The notes beneath the pieces were generated by a model. That model worked only from the letters and a program-made list of their open reading frames with translations. It did no database searches and had not been told where the DNA came from. 64,000 bases of DNA from IMG/VR virus record IMGVR_UViG_3300013123_000005, positions 18,397 through 82,396 of that record; one strand, written 5' to 3'. Within the stretch, counting starts at the first letter, position 1; the number at the start of each line of letters is the position of its first letter. This DNA is from a virus. Both the position numbers and the translations under genes were made by a program. Below are positions 7,601 through 61,450 of this stretch, in pieces.

Positions 7601-7612
7601 AAAGGTTATAAG

Positions 7613-8887
7613 ATGGGTGAAGAAAAAAAGATTCGATTAATGACCATTTCCGACAATCCAATCGGAAAACCAACTGGCGTCGGTCTTCAAACCAGATACA
7701 TGATTGAAGGTTTGTTGAAAACCGGTAAGTATCAAGTCGCTTCCTTAGCAGCAACCGCTGCAAATCAAAATATGAATCCAATCAAAACACAAGAATATGG
7801 TGACGCTTGGGAAATCCTGCCCATTAATGGCTTCGGAGAACCAGAAGTATTGCGAGCCGCCCTAAGATTGAAGAAGCCAGATATTCTTTGGTTCATGACA
7901 GATCCAAGATATTATTGGTGGCTGTGGAATATGGAAAATGAGATTCGCACCAATTGTTACACCGTGTATTATAACATTTGGGATAACTTACCATATCCAA
8001 CATATAACAAAAAATACTACGAATCAACAGATACGCTAGTAGCTATCAGCAAGCTGACTTTCGATATTAATAAAACTGTAGCTCCAAATACTGAATGTTT
8101 GTATTTGCCGCATGCAGTAGACCCGAAGTACTTCAAGCCCCTTCCAGAAGAGAGCGTTAAGACTTTCAGGAAGAACTCTTTAGGACCGAATGCAGAAAAG
8201 TTCATTTTCTTTTGGAACAATCGAAACCAGAAGCGCAAGCAAGCAGCTAGTTTGATTTGGGCATATAAGGACTTTTGCGATAAGATTGGTCACGATAAGA
8301 CAATTCTGTTGATGCACACAGATCCAAAAGAAGCTGCTGGACCAGATTTAGAGGCAAACGTTAAGGCGACAGGACTAACGAACGGAGAAGTATTATTTTC
8401 TACCGATAAGGCATTATCGTTTGAGCGTCTTGGAGTGCTTTACAACGCCTGTGATTGCGGAATTAACATCAGCGATTCTGAAGGTTTCGGCTTGAGCTTG
8501 CTTGAAACTCTTGCATGCGGCAAGCCAGCAATTGCGACGTTGACAGGCGGAATGGTAGAACAGATTATCAATGATAATGGTGTTCATCTTGGAGTTGGAC
8601 TAAAACCATCGGCTAGTCCAGTTGTAGGTTCTCAAATAATTCCTTATATTTATGAAGATCATGTAAGTCGCGAACGGGTTGTTGAAGCAATGACCAAAAT
8701 GTACTTTATGAGTAAAGAAGAGCGAAATAATCTCGGCAAGTTAGCAGTAGAACACGTCAATAAACACTTTAATTTTGAACAATATACAAATCGTTGGGAT
8801 GAAATTCTAACTTCCGTATATCAGAAAGGACCAACATGGCCAAGAGTGGATTACAAATCGTGGAGTCTTACGGAGATGAAGAGTTAG
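7613..8887 (+). CDS. Glycosyltransferase, GT4-like (GT-B fold)
   Basis: A 424-aa protein. An N-terminal Rossmann half has the donor/acceptor loop KPTGVGLQTRYMIEGLL. The C-terminal half has the nucleotide-sugar-binding segment DSEGFGLSLLETLACGKPAI (about residues 288-307), the E-x7-E-like motif of GT4 enzymes. It would transfer a sugar from a nucleotide donor with retention of configuration. It opens a cluster of sugar genes ending with GDP-mannose dehydratase at 15588. Acceptor unknown. Its last 52 nt overlap the next small gene. Confidence 0.85.
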   Translation: MGEEKKIRLMTISDNPIGKPTGVGLQTRYMIEGLLKTGKYQVASLAATAANQNMNPIKTQEYGDAWEILPINGFGEPEVLRAALRLKKPDILWFMTDPRYYWWLWNMENEIRTNCYTVYYNIWDNLPYPTYNKKYYESTDTLVAISKLTFDINKTVAPNTECLYLPHAVDPKYFKPLPEESVKTFRKNSLGPNAEKFIFFWNNRNQKRKQAASLIWAYKDFCDKIGHDKTILLMHTDPKEAAGPDLEANVKATGLTNGEVLFSTDKALSFERLGVLYNACDCGINISDSEGFGLSLLETLACGKPAIATLTGGMVEQIINDNGVHLGVGLKPSASPVVGSQIIPYIYEDHVSRERVVEAMTKMYFMSKEERNNLGKLAVEHVNKHFNFEQYTNRWDEILTSVYQKGPTWPRVDYKSWSLTEMKS

Positions 8888-9084
8888 CAACATATAGTTT
8901 TGTTTTGAGATATGGTAATAAGTTAGCCAATAGTGTTTGTCATAAATTGTTTATCAAAGCTCCCGTTGAAAAAGAAGATGTTAGTGCAGTTGCAGCATTA
9001 ATTAAAGAGCAGTTGGACTTATTGACAGTTGAACAGTTGGCTGAATGGGTAAGAGAAATAGAGCGTTATAGGGACGGAGAATAA
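8836..9084 (+). CDS. Small helical protein in the sugar cluster, 82 aa
   Basis: Starts inside the end of the preceding glycosyltransferase, with AAGG upstream. It opens MAKSGLQIVESYGDEELATY and ends in two helices (AVAALIKEQLDLLTVEQLAE). No family is recognised. The position between two glycosyltransferases suggests an accessory or partner, but nothing in the sequence proves it. Confidence 0.5.
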   Translation: MAKSGLQIVESYGDEELATYSFVLRYGNKLANSVCHKLFIKAPVEKEDVSAVAALIKEQLDLLTVEQLAEWVREIERYRDGE

Positions 9085-9085
9085 A

Positions 9086-10366
9086 TTGGCAGAGAAAAAA
9101 AAGGTTGTAGTCGTTGGTAGTGCCTTTGCTACTGCTGGCTATTCGGTTGCTGTTCGTTTCGTTCTAGAGTCTTTAAAAGACAGGAATGACGTTGAATTAT
9201 ATTTGGTATCGACTCCTTGGGCGAAGATGACCAATAATTTGCAGCAAACCGAATTTTTTGAATGGATGCATTCTTTGGTACTCAAGACTTTTGAATATCA
9301 AAAGAACGGCGGCAAGTTTGATGTTTCTGTACAGGTAACAATTCCTGGCGAATGGCAGAAGATTGCGCCAATCAATATTGGTGTTACTGCTGCGATGGAA
9401 ACCGATAGAATTTCGAAACAATGGCTTGAGAAGTGTTATTTGATGGACAAGATTATCGTTCATTCGGAGCACTCAAAGAATTCCATCGTTAACGCTCATT
9501 ACAAGATTTCAGTGCCGAATGGTCGAGAAATCGATTTAAAGGTACCTTCCAGCGTTCCTATTGAAGTGGTGCCATTTCCAGTAGTCCCGGTAGAGCAAGA
9601 CGCTAATTTTGCCCTTCCTGCGCTTATGGACTTCAATTTCCTGGCAGTCGCTCAATGGGGTTCAAGAAAGAACCTAGAACAGACGATTATTGGTTTTGTC
9701 GAGGCAATGAACAATGAGCCTGTTGGATTGATTCTGAAGGTTGCCGGTGGCAATCTTTCGAACGTTGATCGAGAAGATACAAAAGAAAAGTTAGACAAGT
9801 TACTCAAACCGCTATACACAAAGTATCCAAACCGAAAGTGCAAAGTATTTCTTCTTCATGGTTATATGACTGATGCAGAAATGAGCGCCTTGTATCAAAA
9901 TCCAAAAGTCAAGGCAATCGTTACAACTACTCATGGAGAGGGTACGTGTTTGCCGATTCTTGACGCAGCCTCATATGGTTTGCCAGTAGTTTGTTCTTGG
10001 TGGAGCGGATATACTGACTTTCTTCAAGCTCCAACAGTCGACAAGAAGCTGCACAAAACAGTTATCAAGCCGATGGTAACTCAGATTGAATTCAAAATCG
10101 CTCCAGTTGATCCTTCGTTTGGATTGATTCCGCAATGGCGTAATTTAATTGAGCCTGGAATGCAATGGTGTTATCCAGACATGGTATCGTACAAGAACGC
10201 TTTGCTTGACGTATATAAGAATCATTCTGAAAAGCTTGGTAAGGCAAAGAAGCTTCAAAAGCATATTTTAGTTGAACTGGAAAAGTCAAAGATTTACGAG
10301 AAGATGCGCGAGACTTTGTTGGGGGAAGCTTTCGAGATTGAAGCTGTTGAGATTGGAGTTGTGTGA
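9086..10366 (+). CDS. Glycosyltransferase, GT4-like
   Basis: A 426-aa protein starting with TTG behind GGAG. The N-terminal domain has GSAFATAGYSVAVRFVLESL (acceptor loop); the middle has FLAVAQWGSRKNLEQTIIGF, typical of the start of a GT4 C-terminal domain. The donor-binding stretch is THGEGTCLPILDAASYGLPV. It shares the 'AQWGSRKN' and 'GEG' blocks with the next protein (AQWQPRKG, TRGEGFCIPL), so the two are probably duplicates with different linkages or acceptors. Confidence 0.85.
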   Translation: MAEKKKVVVVGSAFATAGYSVAVRFVLESLKDRNDVELYLVSTPWAKMTNNLQQTEFFEWMHSLVLKTFEYQKNGGKFDVSVQVTIPGEWQKIAPINIGVTAAMETDRISKQWLEKCYLMDKIIVHSEHSKNSIVNAHYKISVPNGREIDLKVPSSVPIEVVPFPVVPVEQDANFALPALMDFNFLAVAQWGSRKNLEQTIIGFVEAMNNEPVGLILKVAGGNLSNVDREDTKEKLDKLLKPLYTKYPNRKCKVFLLHGYMTDAEMSALYQNPKVKAIVTTTHGEGTCLPILDAASYGLPVVCSWWSGYTDFLQAPTVDKKLHKTVIKPMVTQIEFKIAPVDPSFGLIPQWRNLIEPGMQWCYPDMVSYKNALLDVYKNHSEKLGKAKKLQKHILVELEKSKIYEKMRETLLGEAFEIEAVEIGVV

Positions 10367-11589
10367 TGAAAAGGTTTGTTTTTATCGCGCAATTTCGAGA
10401 TAATTGTGGATATGCCGTTGCTGCGAGAGGATATCTTAAAGCCTTAGATCATTATTTAAAAATGCATCCGAAAGCTTTTCATTTAAGTATATTTACAATT
10501 CCTCTTGAAACCAATAACAGCAAAATTACCGAGGAAGAAGAAGCGCTTATTGAAAAATATGAGATATCTTATGATGAAGTTGATAACTTGATAATCCATA
10601 ATCAACCTCAATATACAGTCATTTGGAGTATGCCTCCACCCATGATAGTATGGAAAGACAAAAGTGCTTTGCCGATTTGGATAAAGGTGAAGCAGCTTTT
10701 TGATCATTCTAGTGATAATGTGAACATTTCTTTTTGGGAAGCAACAGATATTCCTCGCTTTTGGATGGATATTTTTGACGCCATCAAAACCTCGAAGGTA
10801 ATAGTCGCTTGTGATTGGAATGAACAAGTATATCGACGACGGCTTGGAGAGCGTGTATATCGCGTTCCATGCGTTGTTGAGCAGAGTGATATCAAAGATA
10901 TAACAGAGATTTCGTCGTTGCGTTCACTTTTGAGCGGAAAATATGTATTTTTGTCAGTTGCACAGTGGCAGCCAAGAAAAGGATTAAAAGATCTTTTGCG
11001 CGCGTATTATATGGAGTTCGCAAAGCGTCAAGATGTTGTTTTAGTTTTGAAGACTTACATTAATATTATGAACAACAATCCGATGTCAGCCAGTCAACAA
11101 AAGCAAGAGATTCAAAAGCAAATTGTTGAGATCCGAAACTCCATATATCTAGATGATGGCAGCAATCCTTCGGCGTTAGTTGTGGTTGTCCCTGGTGCTA
11201 TTTCGAAGGGAAATTTGAATTGGCTGTATAATAGTTGCAATGCTTTCGTTTTGCCCACGCGCGGAGAAGGTTTTTGCATTCCGTTGGCAGAGGCTATGCA
11301 ATTCAACAAGCGCGTAATCGTCCCTCGCGAGGGAGGTCATGTTGATTTGCTTCGGGGATATCCCGAAGATTCTATTTTTTTGACTGATGGAATGTGGCAA
11401 CCGTATGAGGGATTGCCTGGGTATACGTGCAATATGGATTGGTATTTGGCGGATATTAAGTCAGTTCGCAAGCAGATGAGAGCGGCTTTCGAGAGTGGTC
11501 TTGTTGATCATATAAGTCCACAATCGTTAAGTCTAAATACTATTGAATTGGTTGGCGATAAATTAGCCGGAGTGCTACTAAATGTATAA
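10366..11589 (+). CDS. Glycosyltransferase, GT4-like
   Basis: A 407-aa protein. ATG 10366 overlaps the previous TGA and has GGAG 7 nt upstream. The N-terminal loop RDNCGYAVAARGYLKAL, the middle block FLSVAQWQPRKGLKDLLRAY and the donor site LPTRGEGFCIPLAEAM are those of a GT-B retaining glycosyltransferase. It is a likely paralogue of the preceding gene. A segment of the N-terminal domain (PLETNNSKITEEEEALIEKY) looks like an insertion. Overlaps the acyltransferase gene by 8 nt. Confidence 0.85.
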   Translation: MKRFVFIAQFRDNCGYAVAARGYLKALDHYLKMHPKAFHLSIFTIPLETNNSKITEEEEALIEKYEISYDEVDNLIIHNQPQYTVIWSMPPPMIVWKDKSALPIWIKVKQLFDHSSDNVNISFWEATDIPRFWMDIFDAIKTSKVIVACDWNEQVYRRRLGERVYRVPCVVEQSDIKDITEISSLRSLLSGKYVFLSVAQWQPRKGLKDLLRAYYMEFAKRQDVVLVLKTYINIMNNNPMSASQQKQEIQKQIVEIRNSIYLDDGSNPSALVVVVPGAISKGNLNWLYNSCNAFVLPTRGEGFCIPLAEAMQFNKRVIVPREGGHVDLLRGYPEDSIFLTDGMWQPYEGLPGYTCNMDWYLADIKSVRKQMRAAFESGLVDHISPQSLSLNTIELVGDKLAGVLLNV

Positions 11590-12118
11590 GTCTCTAGAAT
11601 TTATGAAACAATTTAAGTATGTCGGAGAAGGTGTACAAGTATTCGAAAATGCGCTGATTTTGAAACCAGAAGAGATCATTTTGCACGATGGGTGTCGCAT
11701 TGATGATTTTTGCCGTCTTGAGGGTGGTAGCGGATTAGATATCGGGCGGTATGTTCACATTAGTTCGTTTTGTGGAATTTTAGGCGGCGGCAAGGTGATT
11801 CTTGAAGACTATGTTGCTATGGCTCAAGGAAGTCGCATTATATCTGGAAGCGATACAAAGAATGCGATTATGTCTGCTGCTTCACCTCACGGTCGAGAAA
11901 TCAAAAGAAGCTGGAATATTCTACATAAACATGCATTTATGGGAGTTAATTCGGTATTGATGGTTGGAATTCCGCTACATGAAGGTGTGGTTGTCGGCGC
12001 ATGCGCAGTAGTAACGAAGGAATATCCAGCGTGGACTATTCTTGGTGGCGTTCCAGCAACAATCATTGGTAACAGAAACGCTTCGAGGGTAATTCAAAAG
12101 GAAGACGCGGGAACATGA
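11582..12118 (+). CDS. Left-handed beta-helix (hexapeptide) acyltransferase
   Basis: A 178-aa protein. Imperfect hexapeptide repeats run from about residue 35 to 160. The block KHAFMGVNSVLMVGIPLHEG followed by VVVGACAVVTKEYPAW and GGVPATIIGNR is the signature of WbbJ/maltose-acetyltransferase-like enzymes. A His in ASPHGREI is a candidate catalytic base. It would acetylate a sugar hydroxyl or amino group from acetyl-CoA. Next to a perosamine-type pathway, N- or O-acetylation of that sugar is a reasonable inference. Confidence 0.8.
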   Translation: MYKSLEFMKQFKYVGEGVQVFENALILKPEEIILHDGCRIDDFCRLEGGSGLDIGRYVHISSFCGILGGGKVILEDYVAMAQGSRIISGSDTKNAIMSAASPHGREIKRSWNILHKHAFMGVNSVLMVGIPLHEGVVVGACAVVTKEYPAWTILGGVPATIIGNRNASRVIQKEDAGT

Positions 12119-12183
12119 AGTTTTATGGCCAATTCGATCCTCCAATCGATAAAATTCTTTATTTGCGAGGCAATAATGTCTGA
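12115..12183 (+). pseudogene. Possible remnant of a FkbM-type methyltransferase start
   Basis: A 22-codon frame whose ATG overlaps the previous stop. The peptide begins MKFYGQFDPPIDKILYLR. From memory this resembles the N-terminus of FkbM-family methyltransferases in phage and bacterial sugar clusters (Y-G-Q-F-x-P-P-x-D-K-x-L), after which the rest is missing. It may be a deletion remnant, or a short leader coupled to the following gene at 12176. Confidence 0.3.
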
Positions 12184-12478
12184 TACACTAGGTTCTTTAA
12201 TTGACAAGCTTTTTACTGTCGACACAAAAATGTGGAACAATCAAGAAGAATTGTATCGAATTCGACGAATGACATTCGATGAGTACAAGCATGAGTATTT
12301 TGAAAATGAAGAGGGCGCAAAACGTTTGTGGTCTTCATTACAAAAGGCTTGTGATTTAAATGTTCAAAGAAACAATCTTATTGATGAAATTGATCAACAT
12401 ATTGTGACCCTCTTAGAAGACATAAAAAATGATAAAGCGCTTGAAGAATACGTCCAGACTAAATACAAAACCTATTAA
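12176..12478 (+). CDS. Small helical protein of carbohydrate clusters, 100 aa
   Basis: ATG 12176 has GAGG five bases upstream; the frame is open further left but that part lacks a ribosome site. The sequence TLGSLIDKLFTVDTKMWNNQ, then EELYRIRRMTFDEYKHEYF and QKACDLNVQRNNLIDEID, is a coiled helical layout resembling DUF4254-type proteins. Such genes accompany sugar-biosynthesis genes in phages and bacteria, but their role is not known. Its end overlaps the next gene by 50 nt. Confidence 0.6.
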   Translation: MSDTLGSLIDKLFTVDTKMWNNQEELYRIRRMTFDEYKHEYFENEEGAKRLWSSLQKACDLNVQRNNLIDEIDQHIVTLLEDIKNDKALEEYVQTKYKTY

Positions 12479-13490
12479 AACCGAAGAAGTCTCTTCCATA
12501 TATAAAGAAGCTTCGAAATTTTTTGATATGTCTGTTGAGGCTATAAAAGATGAAATATCAGTAATATTGCATACATTTGAAGCGGATTTGATTGAATTGT
12601 GTGAAAGAATAGATTGTACTGAAGTAGATACTGTGTTTGTGGAATATGCTGGATTCGGTGATGCCATTCACTCCAGATTAATGATTCAACAATATCGCTT
12701 AGAGCATCCGGAGCAAACTGTGGCATGGTTTGTTAATAAAAACGTAGCAAATATTTATAGAAACGAAGAATTGGTTTTTGGTCATCATGTAATTAATCGA
12801 TATCGATATCCTCATAACGCTTTAAGTCGAGAAGTGATTAAGTGTTTAGGTGCGTTGGTGGACAAAGCATTTGTGCATTCCAAACTTCGAATATACGATC
12901 TGTCTAAAAAAGTAATACAATATCACATAGAAAGACGCCGCATTCAACAGTGGAAAAGTTTTGAGTTTCCTTATTATGACTCAATGAATATGAAAAGAAA
13001 TTACGATATTAAACACGTAGTTAAGCATAATGGCAAAATGAGCGATTTCGATTTTTTTTCATCTTTGGGTGCCCGACCCTGGATTCTTTTTGAACATTCT
13101 TCAATGTCGTTTCGAACGTCATCTAATCCAAAAGCTTATGCTGAGTTTGTGCAAACCATGATTAAGAATGACGTTCCGGTTGTGTTGGTTGGCGCTAAGG
13201 ATGATTTTTTTATTGATGGTTGTTACAATTGTCTTGGAGCAAATTTTTATGATGTTATAACATTGATGCGTAATTGTTCTTGTTTTGTTGGAAGAAATTC
13301 TGCCAATCAAATGATGTCTGTTTTTACACTCAAACCAATAAACATATTAGAGTTAGACACAGTTGACCATAATGGTCTTTTGTCATTTAAAAAATGCGAA
13401 TATTTGCCCGTTAATAGTATTATTCGTTATTATGATACGAGAAAAACTGTTGGGTATATTGAACATGCGTTAGAGTTAGCTAAAAAATGA
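12429..13490 (+). CDS. Heptosyltransferase-like glycosyltransferase (GT9 fold)
   Basis: A 353-aa protein. After a helical N-terminus, VFVEYAGFGDAIHSRLMIQQ and AWFVNKNVANIY resemble the first Rossmann half of GT9 enzymes (G-x-G-D-x-I/L). The C-terminal half has VPVVLVGAKDDFF and LMRNCSCFVGRNSANQMMSV, matching the late donor-binding region ('...C..fvG.nSg..h.a'). The usual D/H catalytic residues are not all clear, so activity on heptose is not implied. It probably adds a sugar in the same glycan made by the neighbouring genes. Confidence 0.6.
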   Translation: MIKRLKNTSRLNTKPIKTEEVSSIYKEASKFFDMSVEAIKDEISVILHTFEADLIELCERIDCTEVDTVFVEYAGFGDAIHSRLMIQQYRLEHPEQTVAWFVNKNVANIYRNEELVFGHHVINRYRYPHNALSREVIKCLGALVDKAFVHSKLRIYDLSKKVIQYHIERRRIQQWKSFEFPYYDSMNMKRNYDIKHVVKHNGKMSDFDFFSSLGARPWILFEHSSMSFRTSSNPKAYAEFVQTMIKNDVPVVLVGAKDDFFIDGCYNCLGANFYDVITLMRNCSCFVGRNSANQMMSVFTLKPINILELDTVDHNGLLSFKKCEYLPVNSIIRYYDTRKTVGYIEHALELAKK

Positions 13491-14599
13491 TTCCAATTTA
13501 TAAACCTTATTTAAATGATGTTACAAAAGATCTGGTTCGATATGCTCTTGATAGTGGATGGGTTTCTTCACAGGGTCAATATATCGATATGGCAAAGCAG
13601 TTATTAAAAGAACGCTTGGGAGTTAAACATGTAATTTTGACGTGTAATGGCACTGCCGCAACATATTGTTTGGCCAAGGCGGTGCAATATGTTAAGCCAA
13701 AGGCTGAAGAAGTGATTACGTCAAACAACAGTTATGTTGCATCCGTCAACAGTTTTCTGCATGATGATAAATACGATATTTTAGCCTTGGATGCAGACAA
13801 AAACACTTGGAACATGGACTTATCAGCTGATTGGTTAGAAAGAGAGGGAATGCTAGCTTCAGGTGTTATTTTTGTAGTTCACAATATGGGCAATCCCGTA
13901 AATGTACCGGCGCTTCAGAGAAAGTTTCCAAATGCGTTGATTGTTGAAGATGCGTGCGAAGCTTTGTTTGGTGAATATGATGGAAAGCCAGTTGGCTCTG
14001 CTGGTCTTTGTGCTTCTTTTTCTTTTTTTGCAAACAAAACAATAACCTCGGGCGAGGGAGATGCGTTCGTAACCAATGATGATACGATTGCGAAATATAT
14101 TGCATCATACGTTAATCAGGGCAATACTTCAACCAGATTCGTGCATGATACGCTAGCTCATAATTTCAGAATGACGAATTTACAGGCTGCAATGTTATGC
14201 GGTCAGCTTTTATCTGTCGATGAGATCCTAACATCCAAGCATGCCGTTTTTGAAGCGTATCGTGCCAAATTGAGCAGTTCAACAAAGTTGAGCTATCAAC
14301 AGAACGCCGAAAACACAAAAGCAGCAGAGTGGATGTTTGCAGTAAAATTAGAAAATTCTGGAACATATTTGCAGGCTGAATCTTTCTTTTCAGAACGCAA
14401 CATTGATATTAGACCAATGTTTTATCCGTATACTCGTCACGAACATTTGCGTTTAAATTCTAGAGTGTTCTGTCAGAAAGATGATGTAGCTAAAGAATTA
14501 TCTGAAAAGGTGATTGTCTTGCCTTCATATCCGACATTGACACTTAACGAAATTGAGCATATCTGTGATACTTTACTTGAATTTGTGGAGAAATCATGA
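13487..14599 (+). CDS. DegT/DnrJ aminotransferase, GDP-perosamine synthase-like
   Basis: A 370-aa PLP enzyme. Lys184 in FSFFANKTITSGEGDAF forms the Schiff base, and ED155ACEALFGEYDGKPVGS supplies the Asp that contacts the pyridine nitrogen. The FSFF-x-NKTIT-x-GEG block is the hallmark of GDP-perosamine synthases (Per/RfbE), which aminate GDP-4-keto-6-deoxymannose using glutamate. The next gene makes exactly that substrate. The 4-nt overlaps with both neighbours (ATGA) indicate a coupled operon. Other sugar 4-aminotransferases are possible, but the neighbour makes Per the best call. Confidence 0.82.
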   Translation: MIPIYKPYLNDVTKDLVRYALDSGWVSSQGQYIDMAKQLLKERLGVKHVILTCNGTAATYCLAKAVQYVKPKAEEVITSNNSYVASVNSFLHDDKYDILALDADKNTWNMDLSADWLEREGMLASGVIFVVHNMGNPVNVPALQRKFPNALIVEDACEALFGEYDGKPVGSAGLCASFSFFANKTITSGEGDAFVTNDDTIAKYIASYVNQGNTSTRFVHDTLAHNFRMTNLQAAMLCGQLLSVDEILTSKHAVFEAYRAKLSSSTKLSYQQNAENTKAAEWMFAVKLENSGTYLQAESFFSERNIDIRPMFYPYTRHEHLRLNSRVFCQKDDVAKELSEKVIVLPSYPTLTLNEIEHICDTLLEFVEKS

Positions 14600-15588
14600 G
14601 TAACAAACAAAAGCTAGCTATCATAACCGGCGTAAATGGACAAGATGGCTCTCATCTATCCGATCTTCTTTTGCAAAAAGGCTATAGGGTTGTCGGATTG
14701 ACTCGCCGCCGAGCCGTAGAGTGCGGCAGCAATCTCGAATCAGCGCTCAAAGATCCCAATTTTCAATTGGAATATGCCAACATGACCGACTCTTCGAGTC
14801 TTTGGAATGCTCTGCATAAACACAGACCAGACGAAATCTACAATCTTGCTGCTCAATCTCACGTACATACTTCGTTTGAGGTGCCAGAAGAAACCATGAA
14901 CGTTAATGCACTTGGTACGCTAAGACTTCTCGATGCAATGCGAAAGATTGTACCAGAAGCGAGATTTTATCAAGCCAGTACCAGTGAAATGTTTGGCAAA
15001 AATATTGCAGTGCCCCAAAATGAACAGAGCGCAATGCTTCCCGTTTCCCCTTATGCATGTGCAAAACTATGTGCTCATCAGCTTTGCGAAAGTTACAGAG
15101 AGGCATATGGAATGTTTATTGCGTGTGGCATTCTTTACAACCACGAGGGAGAACGTCGAGGTGAAAAATTTGTATCACGCAAAATTACACAAGGCGTTGC
15201 GAGAATTAAACATGGGCTTCAGAACAAACTTGTACTTGGAAATTTACATGCAAAGCGCGATTGGGGTTATGCCGTAGATTATGTTAACGCCATGTACATG
15301 ATGTTGCAACACGATAAACCAGACACTTTCGTAGTAGCCACCGGTATCACTCGTACTGTTTTTGATTTTGTATTGGAGACTTTCAGATGTGCTGGAATTG
15401 AAAATTGCGCGGATTATATTTCTCTCGATCCAACGCTCCAACGCCCAGCGGAAGTTCCATTACTGCTTGGTGATGCTAGTAAAATTCAAAATGAACTTGG
15501 ATGGCAACCAGAAGTGACTTTTGAACAATTGGTAGAATTAATGTATAATCATGATGAACAAGAAGTGTTGCGGTTAATTAAAAACTAG
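14596..15588 (+). CDS. gmd: GDP-mannose 4,6-dehydratase
   Basis: A 330-aa extended short-chain dehydrogenase. TGVNGQDGSHL (residues 11-21) binds NADP. The catalytic set is Thr129/Glu131 in QASTSEMFG and Tyr153/Lys157 in SPYACAK. ILYNHEGERRGEKFVSRKIT matches the 'NHES-RRGE-FV-RKI' block that contacts GDP-mannose; the usual E-S is here E-G. The enzyme converts GDP-D-mannose to GDP-4-keto-6-deoxymannose in the cytoplasm. Together with the upstream aminotransferase this gives GDP-perosamine. No GDP-fucose or rhamnose reductase is seen in the window. Confidence 0.92.
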   Translation: MSNKQKLAIITGVNGQDGSHLSDLLLQKGYRVVGLTRRRAVECGSNLESALKDPNFQLEYANMTDSSSLWNALHKHRPDEIYNLAAQSHVHTSFEVPEETMNVNALGTLRLLDAMRKIVPEARFYQASTSEMFGKNIAVPQNEQSAMLPVSPYACAKLCAHQLCESYREAYGMFIACGILYNHEGERRGEKFVSRKITQGVARIKHGLQNKLVLGNLHAKRDWGYAVDYVNAMYMMLQHDKPDTFVVATGITRTVFDFVLETFRCAGIENCADYISLDPTLQRPAEVPLLLGDASKIQNELGWQPEVTFEQLVELMYNHDEQEVLRLIKN

Positions 15589-46161: not shown

Positions 46162-46716
46162 ATGCTTTTAGGTGCTGATCTTTCAACTAGCATATGCGGT
46201 ATATCTGTTCTTGACGATGATGGCAAATTAGTTCTCTCAGAAGCCATCGATCTTCGCAATAAAAACAAATACAAAACATTAAACGAAAAAGCAGATTGTG
46301 TACGCAAGCACTTAACTGATATTGCTACAATCTATCCAATCGAAAAAGTCTATATCGAAAAGTCTCTGTTTATGTTCACAAGTGGGAAATCTTCTGTGAC
46401 AACACTGTTTCTGTTGGCAGGATTTAACACGCTTGTCAGCTATTTTTGCTATGATATCTTCAAGGTAGAGCCAGAATATATTTCAGCTACCACTGCCAGA
46501 AAAAGAGTCGGAATCGTGCTTGACAAATCTCAAGACACCAAAAAGCAGATTGTTGATTTTGCTAGACAGGAACCCGGTTTTAGTGTATCTTGGACTCCAA
46601 GTGGAAACTACGTACCATCGTGTGCTGACAGAGCAGATGCCTGGGTAGTTGCCAAAGCCTGTTGGATGGGTTCTAAGAGTGCAAAATCAAGCAGAAAAGC
46701 TAAAGATACTGACTGA
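46162..46716 (+). CDS. RuvC-like Holliday-junction resolvase
   Basis: A 184-aa RNase H-fold nuclease. Asp5 in LLGADLSTSICGISVLD, a Glu in VYIEKSLFMFTSG and an Asp pair in CADRADAWVVAKA form the RuvC-type metal site. RuvC cuts four-way junctions symmetrically; in phages such genes clear recombination intermediates before packaging and could replace T4 gp49. It overlaps the primase gene by 38 nt from the preferred start, within a DNA-metabolism block. Confidence 0.8.
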   Translation: MLLGADLSTSICGISVLDDDGKLVLSEAIDLRNKNKYKTLNEKADCVRKHLTDIATIYPIEKVYIEKSLFMFTSGKSSVTTLFLLAGFNTLVSYFCYDIFKVEPEYISATTARKRVGIVLDKSQDTKKQIVDFARQEPGFSVSWTPSGNYVPSCADRADAWVVAKACWMGSKSAKSSRKAKDTD

Positions 46717-47629
46717 CATTTTAGGCGATTTCTATCTTACTGGAGTCGAGAGGCTTTTCGCTTGTCCTAAGTGTCAGCACGATAAACGAAAACTTAGCAT
46801 CAATCTTCAAAAATCAAAATTTAAATGTTGGCACTGCGACTGGAGAGGAAATCTCAATCGTCTTGTCAAGCAACTTGGTAATCAAACTCAAAGAACTGTT
46901 TGGAAAGAATTGACTGGACAAGTCGATTACGATCTCGGTTCTGTCAATGAAGATATGTTCTCGGAGCATATCGAAGAAGAAATAATCGAACCAATCGAGT
47001 TGCCAACAGATTTCGTTAGTTTAGTTAAGAACACATATACATCAAGTGATAAAGCCGCCCTGAAGTATCTCAAATCGAGAGGGTTAACAACCAGAGATAT
47101 TTTTCAATGGAAAATTGGGTACTGTGCCAAGGGTGATTACAAGCAACGAATTATTGTACCTTCTTTTGATTGTCAGGGAGAGCTAAACTACTTTGTCGGA
47201 AGAACCTATGTCGACAGCAATTACAAGTATTGGAATCCAAAAGTTCCAAAGAACATGATTTTTAATGAGCTTTATGTTGACTGGAAAAAAGAGATTGTTT
47301 TGGTCGAAGGCGTCTTCGATCAATTCGTGGCTGGCACTAATTCGATTGCCCTCTTGGGAAGCTCTCTAGACGAACACAACGCCCTATTCCAGCGTGTTGC
47401 GATGTCAGAGACTAGAGTTATAGTGGGTCTTGATCCTGATGCTGAGAAAAAGGCAAATAGGCTCATTTCTGAAATGTTGAAATACGGAATCGAAATTTAT
47501 AAAATGCAAATTGAGAACAAAAAGGATATTGGAGAGATGACCAAGGAAGAATTTCTGGAATGTAAGCGAGAAGCAAAGCCAATGTCAAACGACAACTATC
47601 TTTTGTATCTAATTGAGAGGATTAAGTAA
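46679..47629 (+). CDS. DNA primase (zinc finger + Toprim)
   Basis: A 316-aa protein from GTG 46679 (TTG 46649 would add ten residues). The N-terminus has a four-Cys/His zinc finger, FACPKCQHDKRKLS and FKCWHCDWRGN, as in T4 gp61/DnaG. The C-terminal Toprim domain has VLVEGVFDQFV (E of the E-G-x-x-D) and VIVGLDPDAEKKAN (D-x-D). It makes RNA primers for lagging-strand synthesis. T4 gp61 is of similar size. No replicative helicase is encoded nearby in the window. Confidence 0.85.
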   Translation: MQNQAEKLKILTDILGDFYLTGVERLFACPKCQHDKRKLSINLQKSKFKCWHCDWRGNLNRLVKQLGNQTQRTVWKELTGQVDYDLGSVNEDMFSEHIEEEIIEPIELPTDFVSLVKNTYTSSDKAALKYLKSRGLTTRDIFQWKIGYCAKGDYKQRIIVPSFDCQGELNYFVGRTYVDSNYKYWNPKVPKNMIFNELYVDWKKEIVLVEGVFDQFVAGTNSIALLGSSLDEHNALFQRVAMSETRVIVGLDPDAEKKANRLISEMLKYGIEIYKMQIENKKDIGEMTKEEFLECKREAKPMSNDNYLLYLIERIK

Positions 47630-47634
47630 TAACA

Positions 47635-50600
47635 ATGAAGATAGCAGCTTTTTCAGATCTCCACGTAAAGACTCTCAAGTATCATGAAGAATATCTTGCC
47701 GTATTTCAGGAGTTTTATAAGGATCTTCGAGAACAAAAGCCTGACGTAATTGTATGCGCTGGCGACATTGCTCACTCAAAGGTTGTGCTGTCGCCAGAAT
47801 ACTTCTCTATTGCCGCCAAGCTGTTCAAAGAGTTGGCTTCTATTGCGCCATTGTATATCCTAGCTGGTAATCATGATGCTTCCTTTCGTGGCATGACGCT
47901 TCGCAATGCTTCTAGACTTGATGCTATTACTCCAATCATCGAAGCTCTTGATAATTCAAATATTCACTATATGAAGCAGTCTGGAGAATACAACATCAAT
48001 GACAATATAGTCTTAAATGCAATGTCGTTGTTTGATGTAGATGGTTGGATGCAGCCAACAGATCCAAGCAAGATCAATGTAGCAGTTTTTCATGGAGCGA
48101 TCATCGACGCTTCAACAGACGTTGGCTATACGGTTGATCGTAGTTCTGGAATTGATCTGAGTTATTTTGATTCGTTTGATGCAGCAATTTTTGGAGACAT
48201 TCATCGTCGTCAATTCTTTTCGAACACCCGAGGATATGTCGGTAGTTTGATTCAGCAGAATCATGGGGAAGGCGTAGAGAAAGGCTATAGTATTTGGCTC
48301 ATTAAAAACAAGAATGATATCAGCGTAGAATTTAGACCTCTTCGCAATCCAAAGCCATTCATTACTGTCAATTTGGATCTGGCAGGTAATGTTCCTGCAA
48401 ATCTAGAGATTCCAGTTGGTTCACATGTGCGTGTGGTTGCTCATTCTTATATCAGTCTAGACAAGATGCGAAAGTCTCTCGATGTTGTCAAATCGAAGTA
48501 TTTGCCAGAAGATATTTCCTTTGTTAACAAGATTGACGAGACAAAGTTACAAGAGAGTGTTGCTGTATCTTCTGTTGTTCGCGGTGAAAATCTTCGTTAT
48601 GATGAAGTACAAGAACGAATGATTCGAGATTATCTGAAAGATTTTAAGCCTGATGATGAAACCATGACTTCGATTTTGAAGTTAAATAATCAATATAATG
48701 CTGCAATTAAGAACGATGAAGAAGTCGCTCGTAATGTTCAGTGGTCTGTCAAAAAGATTGAATGGGATAATTTGTTCAATTACGGTTCTGGCAACTATAT
48801 GAATTATGAGCAATTAAGCGGAGTTGCAGCTTTACTAGGAAAAAGTTTTGTAGGAAAAACTTCTACCATTGATGCCCTATTGTTCGGATTATTCAATACT
48901 ACTTCAAAGAACGAAAGAAAGAATGTCAACGTAGTCAATCAACACAAGAATGATGCCGTTGTTCGTCTATGGCTTGAAGCAAATGGAATCTCTTATCGTA
49001 TTGAAAGACGAGTAGAAAAGTACGTTAAGCGGCTTCATGGAGTTGAAACAATCGAAGCTAAGACGGACGTTGATTTTTGGGAAATGCAAGCTGATGGAAT
49101 AGAAATTTCAAGAAATGGAGATACCAGAAGCGATACAGATAGGAACATTCGTACAATTTTTGGAACGGTTGAAGATTTTCTTTTGACTTCGTTATCTTCT
49201 CAGCATGGAGGTTTGCAGTATATCTTTGAGGGTTCAACGAAGCGCAAGGAAATTCTTGCTCGCTTTTTGGATCTTGACAGCTTTGACAAGAAGTTCAAGT
49301 TAGCCAAAGAAGATTCTTCGACCATCAAGGGAGCCTTGAAGCGCGTTGAAGGAATCGATTATGATACGACACTTTCACATGCCAGAACAAAGCTGCACCT
49401 CAATGAAAAAGAAGCTCAAAGAGTCGAGAACAAGCTGACAGAAATCAACAAGACTATTGCGGACAACCAGAATCAGATTGATTCATTTAAGCAGCAGTTG
49501 GCTTTGATTCCAAAGGATATCAAGGAAATTACTGAGACAGAAGAAGAACTAGCTAAGAAGCTAATTCAACAAGATGCATTGACTTCGGAAAGAGATTCTT
49601 TGCTGGATCGCAATGAAGAGCTTAACAAGCTTATCGCGAAGTTGAATCATTTGCTTGATACGTTTGATATTGAAGGTTGTCGAAAGCAACAAGATTTAAT
49701 CGAGCAACTATCTTCTGAAGCCAGGAAGATTGAAGAAAAAGTTGCAGAACTTAATAGAAACAAGTTGACAAATGATAAGAAGACTCAATTGCTTCTTGAG
49801 GTTCCTTGTGGAGAACAGTTTCCTGCGTGCAAGTTTATTCGAGATGCGTTCAAGGCAAAGACAGAGAACGAGTACGTTTGTAATAATCTAAAGTTGCAGT
49901 CAGAACAGCTTGAAAAATTGACAGCAGACAAGGAAGCATTGCAGCCAACAAAAATTGAGGATCTACTATACAAATATGCCGAATTAGCCTCTCAGAAGAC
50001 AGAGTTTGAGCAGGAGGTACTAACTAACCAGACTCTAATTGAAAAGGATGAAAACGCCCTTTCTGTGCTTATAGGATACGTTTCTGAGTTGCAGCAGAGA
50101 ATTGCAAAGAGCAAGGCAGATCAAAAGCTGATTGATAGCGCCAAGAGTCTGCTTGAGCAATTATCTGAAGCGGAAAAGTTGTCAATCAAATATGCTAAAG
50201 AACTCAGTAGGCTAACAACACAACGTCTTGAAGCCTATAAGACACATGGTAAACTTGAAGGTGAAATCAACTCTGTAACCGAAAAGATCGAAGAGCGAGA
50301 AACATTAAGAAATGAATTTGCGTCTTATGATTTGTTCATGCGTTGTATGCATTCTAACGGTATCAGTTACGACATTATCAAGAGTATGCTTCCAGTTTTA
50401 AATAATGAAGTTGCGAAGGTTCTAGCAAATATTGTTGATTTTGAAGTGTTTTTCGAAAATAATGATGATCGGTTGGACATTTTCATTAAGCATCCAAAGC
50501 ATGAGTCTCGTCCAATTGAGATGGGTTCTGGAGCAGAGAAAACAATTGCTGCAATGGCAATTCGATTGGCTTTAACGAAGATTGGCAATTTACCAAAATT

Positions 50601-50796
50601 TTCAACCTTTATTTTGGACGAGCCTGCTACCGGACTTGATGAAGAACGAATGGAAGGGTTTATTCGTGTTTTCGACTTGTTGAAGCTTCAATTTAGGTTG
50701 GTGATTCTCATTTCTCACCTTGATAGTCTCAAAGATGTAGCCGATTTGATCATCACGATTGATAAGGTTGATGGCTACGCCTCCGTTCGGATCTGA
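47635..50796 (+). CDS. SbcD-SbcC (Mre11-Rad50) fusion nuclease/ATPase
   Basis: A 1053-aa single chain combining two normally separate proteins. Residues 1-~360 are an Mre11/SbcD/gp47 phosphoesterase: SDLH (D8, H10), AGD44, GNH80D, VFH153G and GDIH190. Residues ~370-1053 are a Rad50/SbcC/gp46 ATPase: Walker A GKSFVGKTS (402-410), coiled coil, a hook-like CGEQFPAC (725-732), coiled coil, signature GSGAEKT (964-970), Walker B FILDEPATGLDE (from 992) and H-loop His1028. The hook has C-x6-C rather than the usual C-x2-C. It would process DNA ends for recombination-dependent replication. There is no stop or start at the junction. Confidence 0.9.
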   Translation: MKIAAFSDLHVKTLKYHEEYLAVFQEFYKDLREQKPDVIVCAGDIAHSKVVLSPEYFSIAAKLFKELASIAPLYILAGNHDASFRGMTLRNASRLDAITPIIEALDNSNIHYMKQSGEYNINDNIVLNAMSLFDVDGWMQPTDPSKINVAVFHGAIIDASTDVGYTVDRSSGIDLSYFDSFDAAIFGDIHRRQFFSNTRGYVGSLIQQNHGEGVEKGYSIWLIKNKNDISVEFRPLRNPKPFITVNLDLAGNVPANLEIPVGSHVRVVAHSYISLDKMRKSLDVVKSKYLPEDISFVNKIDETKLQESVAVSSVVRGENLRYDEVQERMIRDYLKDFKPDDETMTSILKLNNQYNAAIKNDEEVARNVQWSVKKIEWDNLFNYGSGNYMNYEQLSGVAALLGKSFVGKTSTIDALLFGLFNTTSKNERKNVNVVNQHKNDAVVRLWLEANGISYRIERRVEKYVKRLHGVETIEAKTDVDFWEMQADGIEISRNGDTRSDTDRNIRTIFGTVEDFLLTSLSSQHGGLQYIFEGSTKRKEILARFLDLDSFDKKFKLAKEDSSTIKGALKRVEGIDYDTTLSHARTKLHLNEKEAQRVENKLTEINKTIADNQNQIDSFKQQLALIPKDIKEITETEEELAKKLIQQDALTSERDSLLDRNEELNKLIAKLNHLLDTFDIEGCRKQQDLIEQLSSEARKIEEKVAELNRNKLTNDKKTQLLLEVPCGEQFPACKFIRDAFKAKTENEYVCNNLKLQSEQLEKLTADKEALQPTKIEDLLYKYAELASQKTEFEQEVLTNQTLIEKDENALSVLIGYVSELQQRIAKSKADQKLIDSAKSLLEQLSEAEKLSIKYAKELSRLTTQRLEAYKTHGKLEGEINSVTEKIEERETLRNEFASYDLFMRCMHSNGISYDIIKSMLPVLNNEVAKVLANIVDFEVFFENNDDRLDIFIKHPKHESRPIEMGSGAEKTIAAMAIRLALTKIGNLPKFSTFILDEPATGLDEERMEGFIRVFDLLKLQFRLVILISHLDSLKDVADLIITIDKVDGYASVRI

Positions 50797-52540: not shown

Positions 52541-54604
52541 ATGCCAAAGTATGTTCCAACAAAAGCAGAGATTCAGAAAGAGATAATTCGTTGCGGTAAC
52601 GATCCAAGCTATTTTCTTAAAAATTACGTAAAGATCGTTCACCCAACCAAGGGTCTAGTGCCATTTCTTCTCTACCCGTTTCAGGAAGAGACTTTAAAAA
52701 AGTTTGAAGATCATAGATTCAACATCGTTCTGAAATCAAGACAGATGGGTCTGTCAACATTAACATCTGCTTATGTGGCTTGGTTTATGTTGTTTCAGAA
52801 GAACCGAAACATTCTTGGTATAGCAACCAAATTGTCTGTTGCTGTCAACCTTGTAAGAAAAGTCAAGACAATCTTTTCAAATCTTCCAGGTTGGTTAGTT
52901 GATAATACGGCACAGATTTCTGTTGACAATAAGCAATCTTTGGAACTAACAAATGGTTCTCGATTTGTTGCTTCTGCCAAATCTGAAGATGCTGGTCGTT
53001 CTGAAGCTCTGTCGTTGTTGGTAGTTGACGAGTGTGTTGCCGGAAGTACAAAAGTAACTGTTCGAAGCAAAAAGACTGGCGAGATCAGAGAAATCGAAAT
53101 TCAAGAGCTATACGATTTGTATACGATCAAAAGTATAACAGAGTGGGAAGTCTTAACGCCTTCTGGTTGGAGTATTTTTTCTGGTGTCAAGAAAGTCTCT
53201 AAAAAGTGTTTTTATCGTATCAATACCACTAGAGGCGAGTTAGTTTGCTCTTATGAGCATAAACTTAAAATTTATGATGGTCGCTTTATGGCAGCTAATA
53301 AATTGCAAGTTGGTCAACTTCTATCTGAACAAGTAGAAATATTAGAGATTAAATATTTTGAAGAGGACATCGAGCTTTATGATCTGCTTGAAGTCGAAAA
53401 AGATCATGAATTTTATGCAAATGGAATTGTAAGTTCGAATTGCGCACACATCGAAGGTATGTCTGATATATGGACTTCGATTGGTCCTACAATCACATTG
53501 GGTGGTCGATGCATTGCTCTTAGTTCTCCCAATGGTGCTCAAGGTTGGTTCTACAAGTATTACGTTGACGGTGAGGCTGGAAGAAACGATTTTTGTGCAA
53601 CCAAGTTACATTGGCGATTGCATCCTGATCGTGATGATGAGTGGTTTGAAAAAGAAACTCGCAATATGTCAAAACGCGAGGTATCTCAAGAGTATTCATG
53701 CGGATTTTTATCTTCTGGTGCCACGCTCATTGATGGTGAAGATATCAAGAGAATGGAAGATTCGCAAGTACGCGATCCTGTTGAACGAATTGCTTTTGAC
53801 AGAAACTTGTGGATCTGGCAACATTACGATCCTGTTGCAAATTATTTGATTTCCGCTGACGTTGCCAGAGGTGACGGAGAAGACTATTCTGTTTTTCATA
53901 TTCTCCGATTGGATACGATGGAAGTGATCGGAGAATATCAAGGGAAATTAACTCCAGATCTCTTTGCAGATCTGTTAGCAAATACTGGCAGAATGTATGG
54001 TGGCTGCATGATCGTTGTTGAGAATAATAACTTGGGTTGGATGGTGGCGAACAGGCTTAAAGATGCAATTCAATACAAGAATCTGTATTATGAATTAAAA
54101 GGCACTCACGATCACGTTGATCCAATCAGAGCCTCAAGAAACGATAAGGCTCATTGTGGCTTCAATACTGCTCCAAACGGTTTGGGCAATAGAACACACA
54201 TTCTTGGTAAGCTGGAAGAGTTTGTTCGAAACAGGCAGATAACAATTCGTTCTGTACGTTTATTGAACGAAATGAAGACCTTCATCTACAAAGAGACTGG
54301 CAAAGCAGAAGCAGCAAAAGGATATAACGACGATCTTGTAATGGCTCTGGCAATTGCTTGTTGGGTACGCGAGACAGCATTAACACAAAATGTAAAAGAA
54401 TTGGCATATGCGAAAGCTCTATTGACTTCTATCTATGTATCTACAGCAACGATGGATACGAGAATTGAAGGACAAATTGGGTATGGTTCTGGTCATGACT
54501 CGAAAGAGATAATGCAGAAGAGAAAAGAAGCCAGAGGACAACTTGATATATCAAAAGATGAAGTTATTCCAGGCGGCATGATGTTTCCAGTTTTTGTTGG
54601 ATAG
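52541..54604 (+). CDS. terL: Terminase large subunit with in-frame intein
   Basis: A 687-aa precursor: a 551-aa gp17-like terminase plus a 136-aa intein. The ATPase has Walker A KSRQMGLSTLTS (near residue 65) and Walker B LLVVDE/CAH, which the intein splits after E164. The nuclease domain has ISADVARGDGEDYS, VVENNNLGW and YNDDLVMALA, the three acidic clusters of the RNase H-fold terminase nuclease. It packages DNA into proheads through the portal encoded 0.8 kb downstream. Splicing must occur for ATPase activity, since the insertion point is in the hydrolysis motif. Confidence 0.95.
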   Translation: MPKYVPTKAEIQKEIIRCGNDPSYFLKNYVKIVHPTKGLVPFLLYPFQEETLKKFEDHRFNIVLKSRQMGLSTLTSAYVAWFMLFQKNRNILGIATKLSVAVNLVRKVKTIFSNLPGWLVDNTAQISVDNKQSLELTNGSRFVASAKSEDAGRSEALSLLVVDECVAGSTKVTVRSKKTGEIREIEIQELYDLYTIKSITEWEVLTPSGWSIFSGVKKVSKKCFYRINTTRGELVCSYEHKLKIYDGRFMAANKLQVGQLLSEQVEILEIKYFEEDIELYDLLEVEKDHEFYANGIVSSNCAHIEGMSDIWTSIGPTITLGGRCIALSSPNGAQGWFYKYYVDGEAGRNDFCATKLHWRLHPDRDDEWFEKETRNMSKREVSQEYSCGFLSSGATLIDGEDIKRMEDSQVRDPVERIAFDRNLWIWQHYDPVANYLISADVARGDGEDYSVFHILRLDTMEVIGEYQGKLTPDLFADLLANTGRMYGGCMIVVENNNLGWMVANRLKDAIQYKNLYYELKGTHDHVDPIRASRNDKAHCGFNTAPNGLGNRTHILGKLEEFVRNRQITIRSVRLLNEMKTFIYKETGKAEAAKGYNDDLVMALAIACWVRETALTQNVKELAYAKALLTSIYVSTATMDTRIEGQIGYGSGHDSKEIMQKRKEARGQLDISKDEVIPGGMMFPVFVG
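53033..53440 (+). mobile_element. Mini-intein in terminase, 136 aa
   Basis: Begins with Cys (CVAGSTKVTV) after ...VVDE and ends ...GIVSSN before Cys (CAHIEGM). Block A (CVAGSTKV), block B-like VCSYEHKL with its His, and block F/G-like LLEVEKDHEFYANGIVSSN are in the right order. There is no endonuclease domain. The penultimate residue is Ser instead of the usual His, seen in some inteins. Removing it restores an uninterrupted VVDECAH Walker B region. Confidence 0.88.
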
Positions 54605-59511: not shown

Positions 59512-59733
59512 ATGAAGCTGGCAGAATTAATTCTTAAGAAGATGATTCGCGAAGCAGTTGAGGATGTCAAGAAAGATAGCGATCAAAAAGACTCTTGGCA
59601 GGCAATGAACGCGCTTGAATTATCAGAATATATGCAGGCTTTGAGAGCTAGGGTGCGATCTGAAGTGCAAGAGATTGAGCGGATAAATCAACGTTTGCGA
59701 AAGTTAGGATATACAATTGATGGAAAACATTAA
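59512..59733 (+). CDS. Small capsid-targeting-motif protein, 73 aa
   Basis: Begins MKLAELILKKMIREAVEDVK, one of the clearest examples of the motif (I-R-E|A). The remainder is helical and Arg-rich (LQALRARVRSEVQ-like segments). It sits immediately upstream of the prohead protease, where T4 has its prohead core proteins. Candidate core/internal protein and protease substrate. Confidence 0.6.
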   Translation: MKLAELILKKMIREAVEDVKKDSDQKDSWQAMNALELSEYMQALRARVRSEVQEIERINQRLRKLGYTIDGKH

Positions 59734-61450
59734 AAGCCAGATAACAGATCAAGTAGCTGGCAAGTTTCTTCTGACAGAGTGGTTTGGTCTTTGTCCTGGC
59801 GGCGTTTGCCAAGATTTACTAACTGAAGCCGAGAAGCTTGATATCAAAAACAATAAAGCTGTTTATCTTACTGGCATTATGCAAAGAGCAGATGCCAAGA
59901 ATGGTAATGGTCGAGTATATCCATATGAAACACTTAAGCGAGAGATGGACGTTTATCAGAAAATGATCAATGAACATCGAGCGTTAGGTGAGTGTGTTGA
60001 TGGGGAAACAGAGTGCTTGACGAAGGATGGCTGGAAATCGATTGTTGACGTTAAAGAAAATGAAGAAATTTATACATTTAATGTCGACACGGAAGAAATG
60101 CAACTTCAGCCAGTCTTAATCAAGACTGAACGACTGCATCAAGGAAAAATGATTCATATTCATAACAAGAACAAGATTGATATGTTGCTCACTCCAGAGC
60201 ATAAAATGATTTTGTGGGATCGATACGATAAGTCGTTTGAAATCACTGCTGGAGAGTTTGCTGAGAATTTCGAGACAGATTCGGGACTTCAACATTCATA
60301 TTTTAGACGTGGCGGCATGAAGTGGAATGGAAAGCAAGCTGACACTGTTACAATTGGTTCTCATACGTATGATGCTGATCTTTGGGCAGCTTTTCTTGGT
60401 ATTTATTTAGCAGAGGGTTTTACTTCTTATGACAAGAAAAATTGGGCAGAAGGTTGGAGAGTTTTTGTAGTTCAAACAAAAGAAGACACCAAAAATGAAA
60501 TTCGAAAATTATTTAATGCATTATTCGCTAGCGAGAGAATTTATGAGACTACAAATAAAATTTCCAATAAGACTTCTTTTTCTGTTGTAAACAAAGACGT
60601 ATTCGATTATGTAAGACCATTGGGGAAATCGTGGGAGAAATACATTCCAGAGGAAGTTAAAGAATGGGACGTTCGTAGACTTGAAATTTTGCTCGAATGG
60701 ATGCTTAAGGGCGATGGCAGAAATCGACACAACAAAAAAGGCGAATTGATGAGGGAGTTGCACACAACTTCTTATCGATTAGCAAATGATGTGTCTGAAA
60801 TCTTTCTGAAATTGGGTAGTGGTTCTGTAATGTCCGAGAGAACACAAAAAGATCGGATGATTGAGGGTAGGTTGATTGAAACCAAGAATTGTAGAAAATT
60901 GTACATTTCGTCTGAAAGTGTTACAAATCGTTCTTATTTTTATAAGAAATTTTTGAATATTAACGAAGTGGAATATGACGATAATGTATACTGTGTAACG
61001 GTTGAGAACAAAACTTGGATTGCTCGTAAAAATGGTAGAATATTTATTACCCATAATTGTGATCACCCGACCTCAGAATTAGTCGAATTAAAAAATGCTT
61101 CTCATATGATCACAAGAACTTGGTGGAACGGAAAGGACGTTATGGGGACGCTTAAAGTGCTTTCCACGCCTTCCGGTAAAATTCTGGAAGCATTAGTGCG
61201 TGATGGCGTTCAGGTTGGAATCTCTTCCAGAGGTCTTGGAACGCTAACAGAAACCAGTGAAGGTTTGATGGTTGAAGATGATTTTGAGCTTGTTTGTTTT
61301 GATATTGTATCGGAACCATCAACTACCGGAGCTTTCATGAAGCCGACAATGTTGCATGAATCAAAAGTTCGTTTTAGCGACGTATATACAAAAGCAGATC
61401 GAATTAATCGAATGATGATCAAAATTTTGAACGGAGTAAACAATAAATGA
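59720..61450 (+). CDS. Prohead protease (gp21-like) with in-frame intein
   Basis: A 576-aa precursor: a 221-aa protease plus a 355-aa intein. The protease extein starts MENIKSQITDQVAGKF and has GIMQRADAKNGNGRVYP, then GE/CDHPTSELVELKNASH, the catalytic His motif, and VGISSRGLG with the active Ser. This is the U9/gp21-like serine protease fold. It would mature the head proteins, cutting at L/I-x-E. ATG 59720 is preferred over TTG 59717. The intein splits GE-CDHP, so the protease cannot be active before splicing. It overlaps the preceding motif gene. Confidence 0.92.
   Translation: MENIKSQITDQVAGKFLLTEWFGLCPGGVCQDLLTEAEKLDIKNNKAVYLTGIMQRADAKNGNGRVYPYETLKREMDVYQKMINEHRALGECVDGETECLTKDGWKSIVDVKENEEIYTFNVDTEEMQLQPVLIKTERLHQGKMIHIHNKNKIDMLLTPEHKMILWDRYDKSFEITAGEFAENFETDSGLQHSYFRRGGMKWNGKQADTVTIGSHTYDADLWAAFLGIYLAEGFTSYDKKNWAEGWRVFVVQTKEDTKNEIRKLFNALFASERIYETTNKISNKTSFSVVNKDVFDYVRPLGKSWEKYIPEEVKEWDVRRLEILLEWMLKGDGRNRHNKKGELMRELHTTSYRLANDVSEIFLKLGSGSVMSERTQKDRMIEGRLIETKNCRKLYISSESVTNRSYFYKKFLNINEVEYDDNVYCVTVENKTWIARKNGRIFITHNCDHPTSELVELKNASHMITRTWWNGKDVMGTLKVLSTPSGKILEALVRDGVQVGISSRGLGTLTETSEGLMVEDDFELVCFDIVSEPSTTGAFMKPTMLHESKVRFSDVYTKADRINRMMIKILNGVNNK
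59993..61057 (+). mobile_element. Intein with LAGLIDADG endonuclease, 355 aa
   Basis: Starts with Cys (CVDGETECLTKDGW) after ...RALGE and ends ...RIFITHN before Cys (CDHPTSE), a canonical H-N/C junction. Block B MLLTPEHKM carries the T-x-x-H. Two LAGLIDADG helices are visible: FLGIYLAEGF (near residue 225 of the precursor) and LEWMLKGDGRN (near 325), with a plausible acidic residue in each. It is thus a full, probably still mobile intein. Length 1065 nt is a multiple of three and removal restores the GECDHP protease motif. Confidence 0.92.

Follow-up and report, generated by a model that had tools for sequence, protein, structure and literature searches.

The 64,000-nucleotide window analysed here, positions 18,397 to 82,396 of IMG/VR virus record IMGVR_UViG_3300013123_000005, carries on its plus strand at 47635-50796 a single ATG-started reading frame without internal stops. 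Its 1053-aa product joins an SbcD/Mre11 nuclease and, C-terminal to it, an SbcC/Rad50 ATPase in one chain, both of them complete. PHROGs profiles match in tandem, SbcD-like over residues 1-364 (2.3e-26) and SbcC-like over residues 328-1050 (3.4e-42), while Pfam recognises Metallophos, the calcineurin-like phosphoesterase family, at residues 1-191 (1.9e-14) and gives a sub-threshold match to SMC_N. The protein also profile-matches solved Rad50, SbcC and Mre11, for example 3qkt, a Rad50 structure, over residues 935-1050 (E 6.4e-20). A sequence-only reading of this DNA had proposed one fused chain of this length, and the frame and tandem matches bear it out. Its inference of a fixed 1:1 stoichiometry also follows, since Mre11 and Rad50 are parts of one polypeptide.

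Both halves carry their diagnostic residues. The metallophosphoesterase motifs DxH, GD, GNH(D/E), H and GxH of SbcD/Mre11 are all present, with D8-x-H10, G43D44, GNHD at 78-81 and GDIH at 187-190. The Rad50/SbcC series is likewise complete and divided by a coiled coil, with the Walker A sequence GKSFVGKTS (402-410), Q523 of the Q-loop, the signature SGAEK (965-969), a Walker B ending in D995E996 and H1028 of the H-loop; the motif positions proposed earlier were accurate to within a residue or two. Among 67 homologues, mostly about 40-45% identical to the window protein with two outliers at 25-27%, the catalytic residues of both halves are invariant or nearly so. In the Mre11 half D8, D44, N79, H80, H153, D188 and H190 are invariant, and H10 is kept in at least 90%.

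An AlphaFold2 model, built from an alignment of 67 rows with two rows from the annotated collection left out, has a mean pLDDT of 83 and a pTM of 0.51, the latter making the relative placement of the domains uncertain. It contains an Mre11 fold with its cap, a helix-loop-helix (HLH), the two halves of a Rad50 head and two coil arms. The Mre11 nuclease and capping domain spans residues 1-322 (47635-48600, plus strand, as are all parts of the gene) and resembles the Mre11 structures 3thn, 4nzv and 3qg5 in Foldseek. It is followed by the HLH, presumably the Rad50-binding domain, at residues 323-361 (48601-48717; helices 323-336 and 341-361), and by a short linker of residues 362-368 (48718-48738), which is conserved in length and holds the start of an RN-x2-W motif (R366 and N367, with W370 just beyond). 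Motifs, conservation and model together place the N-terminal ATPase half of Rad50 at residues 369-533 (48739-49233), and the C-terminal half, defined by the profile match to solved Rad50 and by invariant residues, occupies residues 932-1053 (50428-50793). Between them lie an ascending arm of residues 534-721 (49234-49797; predicted helices 534-544, 548-571, 576-622, 627-676 and 679-721) and a descending arm of residues 733-931 (49831-50427; helices 733-768, 771-825, 830-905 and 910-931). Each arm would be about 28 nm long if fully helical. The hook loop, residues 722-732 (49798-49830), joins helices 679-721 and 733-768 and places its cysteines, C725-x6-C732, exactly at the turn of the coil. 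Among solved structures the best Foldseek matches are Mre11-Rad50 complexes, one of which ranks first, and SMC heads; among viral proteins, the highest-ranking are repair proteins of the Mimiviridae group (Tupanvirus, Harvfovirus, Yasminevirus and Catovirus) and of Tenacibaculum phages.

Relatives of the gene were collected in two scans of IMG/VR: one with the window protein gave 50 loci, and the other, with the family alignment, gave 580 relatives, 80 of them retained. The same fusion occurs full length and in one frame in 118 of the 149 fetched loci, the remainder being nearly all cut at contig ends, unfused or interrupted. Some loci were fetched twice; 105 sequences are left once identical ones are removed; at the 85% level the number is 93. 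The annotated phage collection contains a full-length homologue, in Microcystis phage Mel-JY01, and an interrupted one, in a 484-kb phage record, and a third homologue, of 1202 aa, lies in a 735-kb record. A nucleotide search returned no close phage relatives of the region.

The gene sits among replication and packaging genes that recur in these loci. Immediately upstream, and not part of the fusion, is a DNA primase gene (46649-47629, plus strand; phrog_47, 2.2e-42), preceded by a gene for a RuvC-like Holliday junction resolvase (46162-46716, plus strand; phrog_159, 1.9e-7); homologues are found upstream in 103 and 83 loci, respectively. Downstream lies the terminase large subunit gene (52541-54604, plus strand; phrog_5989, 2.6e-47, and phrog_2, 1.7e-46), with a downstream homologue in 92 loci. 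A T4-like portal homologue is present in 63 fetched loci, and the order RuvC, primase, fusion, terminase, portal is kept in many. Neither Pfam nor PHROGs was informative on the conserved genes that lie further upstream, around 42-45 kb. Further along the window, the plus-strand frame at 59717-61450 encodes an S77 prohead protease domain (residues 444-550) after an intein splicing domain (residues 107-447; E 4.8e-8, slightly under the Pfam cut-off) and also matches LAGLIDADG, which makes an intein in this head maturation protease probable. A separate plus-strand cluster at 7613-15588 encodes three phrog_2170 glycosyltransferases, an aminotransferase and a nucleotide-sugar epimerase.

Fused Mre11/Rad50 proteins have been described from Mimivirus R555 onward, with twelve further cases that include Bacillus phage 0305phi8-36, plasmids, bacteria and eukaryotes (Yoshida, Claverie and Ogata 2011, PMC3175470). 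The novelty of the fusion that the sequence-only reading implied is thus lost: the protein is of a known kind, and what it adds to the known set is a well-conserved branch. The same study argued that R555-like genes of ocean and viral metagenomes are phage-borne, abundant in aquatic phages and located near primases, and it listed two peculiarities of R555, a His replacing the third Asp of GDxxD and an Asp replacing His206 of Pyrococcus furiosus (PMC3175470). Both substitutions are present in the window protein, as GDIAH with H47 invariant and as GDIH with D188 invariant. As in R555 and the R555-like fusions of aquatic phages, which have primase genes nearby in metagenome scaffolds, an N-terminal Mre11 and a C-terminal Rad50 share one frame in the order Mre11, HLH, linker, Rad50, and the published fusions carry an HLH at the place matching residues 323-361 (PMC3175470). 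R555 itself, compared here by its published description, is longer, with 1351 aa and a coil of cellular length. The Mel-JY01 protein (WWT39521.1, annotated 'AAA domain containing protein') is also a full-length fusion, 27% identical over 99% of the query, with a primase-like gene two genes upstream; it differs in being about 73% divergent and in having a C-x2-C hook (HEYDPKCKHC). The nucleases of the T4 gp47/gp46 and T5 D12/D13 types share the two domains and the gene order, but are two separate proteins, and their sampled unfused relatives have a C-x2-C hook. E. coli SbcCD and cellular Mre11-Rad50 are alike in fold and catalytic motifs, but consist of separate subunits with a longer coil and a CXXC hook.

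With a probability of roughly 85%, we take the window protein to be an Mre11/Rad50 fusion of the R555 type, encoded by a T4-like tailed phage of marine origin, that does the work of T4 gp47/gp46, and a single-chain version of that enzyme is the best-supported description. Pairing of two chains would most likely involve both their Mre11 domains and their ATP-sandwiched Rad50 heads, giving the M2R2 arrangement of the two-gene enzyme, with the HLH and the short RN-x2-W linker replacing non-covalent docking of Mre11 on Rad50. ATP hydrolysis would then open the nuclease to DNA ends, which the enzyme would resect or clip to 3' single strands, and these would feed the phage genome's recombination-dependent replication and its repair. 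Since His206 is catalytic in P. furiosus Mre11, its exchange for Asp could make activity differ. The C-x6-C loop at the end of the arms, of roughly 190-200 residues, would most likely bind a single zinc between two hooks much as CXXC does, but with a larger loop. Recombination-dependent replication and end processing are the most likely functions; no recombinase or polymerase was recognised for this phage, whose record is an 82-kb fragment, and the replication role is read from the neighbouring genes and from T4. With a terminase gene nearby, the enzyme may additionally process replication products before packaging.

A joining of two separate genes through a sequencing error or a missed stop, which the sequence-only reading had named as a possible source of error near residues 360-370, has a negligible chance of explaining the fusion. 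Such artefacts do exist, as a Listeria phage shows. The annotated 1009-aa recombination exonuclease of phage LMTA-57 (KJ591605.1; L004:3995-7024) is encoded where close Listeria phage relatives have two annotated genes, and a stretch of 422 bases in those relatives is 421 bases long in LMTA-57; the one missing base joins the two genes, and its cause is probably an error in sequencing or a frameshift that arose recently. The window gene has no stop at the junction, and the frame is open in about 100 divergent homologues, which excludes a frameshift or assembly artefact for this family. The junction itself, from the second HLH helix to the first strand of Rad50 (361 to 370), is conserved in length, at 8 residues in 99 of the 105 sequences; among the 67 homologues R366 and N367 are invariant and W370 is kept in at least 90%. 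A second IMG/VR contig carries the fusion gene without a nucleotide difference and with 3 mismatches in the 15,159 bases around it. This contig may come from the same sample and so lends weak support, whereas the divergent homologues lend strong support.

A genuine single frame is also compatible with a chain that is made whole and then cut post-translationally into the Mre11 and Rad50 of a usual two-subunit complex. The linker is short and lies in a loop between confidently modelled domains, and the phage encodes a protease of the S77 head type; yet no protease site was identified in the fusion protein, and the conserved linker length and RN-x2-W motif suggest a structural role, which makes cleavage improbable. 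Slightly less probable again is a defence or counter-defence SMC-nuclease of the JetABC, Lamassu or RloC-like kind in place of a replication and repair enzyme. Heads of JetABC and Lamassu do appear among the lower-ranked Foldseek matches, but the top match is an Mre11-Rad50 complex, the Mre11 nuclease is complete, and synteny with primase, resolvase and terminase extends over about 100 loci.

The family varies in its hook. The CXXC hook of Rad50 has been called highly conserved (PMC9569753). In place of this apical CXXC the window protein has C725-x6-C732, as the sequence-only reading had noted, while other members of the family have C-x2-C, and the non-CXXC hook is a variation within the family, not an exclusion from Rad50/SbcC. 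Across 91 non-redundant members, 68 hooks are long (56 C-x6-C and 12 C-x7-C), 20 are of the C-x2-C form HYDPxCx2C (e.g. HEYDPDCKFC) and 3 are of a CPxC type. Neither hook, zinc nor cysteine is mentioned in the main text of PMC3175470, and a description of the long form was not found in the literature searched, mostly outside subscription journals. The hook diversity, including an unusual and repeatedly changed tip in most of the branch, is thus apparently undescribed.

A link between fusion and hook, suggested by the sequence-only reading, does not survive comparison with unfused proteins. Sampled unfused phage SbcC proteins have mostly C-x2-C hooks, including those of T5, a Bacillus Herelleviridae phage, pf16, GAP161, an Enterococcus phage, hairong, Cr30 and cyanophages; for Leptospira phage LE1 the hook was not found in the part scanned. 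The unfused SbcC of Moorella phage MTATph1, however, has the C-x7-C hook PCNDKLKPSC. Since the fused family itself has C-x6-C, C-x7-C and C-x2-C members, the long hook is not confined to fusions, nor do fusions require it, which rules out fusion as the cause of the hook change.

On a quick tree from which the coil and hook columns were left out, at least 15 changes are needed for the four hook classes, a count that is approximate, against about 32 for shuffled labels. Hook class is thus inherited, yet it changes often. The split between long and short hooks needs at least 10 switches, again approximately, because long branches, that of the window protein included, meet in this tree. The clearest contrast is between two loci, L083 (C-x6-C) and L131 (CPxC type), whose heads are 96.6% identical but whose coil tips are 36.9% identical; at DNA level, an identity of about 0.85 gives way to one of about 0.45 in the coil and recovers beyond it. 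The pairs L081/L107, L024/L126 and L069/L070 show the same contrast to lesser degrees. For pairs with heads 80-90% identical, coil identity averages 53% with the same hook but 27% with different hooks. Coils diverge fast in general; L013 and L043, of the same hook class, have heads 93% identical and coils 40% identical. When the nearest coil was compared with the nearest head, no donor of swapped hooks was recognised. The best matches to the coils of L131 and L107 are their own close relatives, at 32-37%, which leaves recombination from a known donor unsupported. With no donor found and coils diverging quickly, module exchange is a mere possibility, and fast divergence may explain the pattern instead.

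One tentative hypothesis, which we consider rather less likely to be right than wrong, is that the hook of fused Mre11/Rad50 in aquatic phages is mostly of a second kind, C-x6/7-C within a conserved PCGxxFPxC(K/R)FI(K/R)DA block; that the coil-plus-hook tip is an exchanged or rapidly replaced module under conserved heads; and that hook type decides pairing, with self or with the SbcC of a rival phage or host. Near-identical heads with different cysteine layouts, as in L083 and L131, are natural pairs in which the role of the hook can be studied apart from the catalytic heads; for structural work, single-chain Mre11-Rad50 units of fixed stoichiometry would be useful. We regard hook variability as more useful than the fusion itself and as the part worth keeping.

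Several relatives of the gene are interrupted or partly duplicated. In L114:6938-7905 a GIY-YIG-like homing endonuclease frame (6959-7714) directly follows the fusion gene and is itself followed by a second copy of the C-terminal 60-odd codons from Walker B (7711-7905), an arrangement that looks like an insertion bringing its own 3' end. A second Walker B-to-C-terminus copy also stands just after the intact fusion gene at L110:8150-8359, with no endonuclease between. The interrupted homologue of the 484-kb phage record (LR756508.1; L002:3944-8169) contains, within the Mre11 domain between GDIHKRQ and VFSGSLIQQNHGE, a 305-aa frame that has cysteine pairs and probably represents an intron or homing endonuclease. 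Lastly, a 2.8-Mb chromosome record of candidate division WOR-3 (CP070664.1; L138) holds a 45% identical relative that covers residues 2-629 only, in one frame, and is a truncated or frameshifted copy, perhaps in a prophage.
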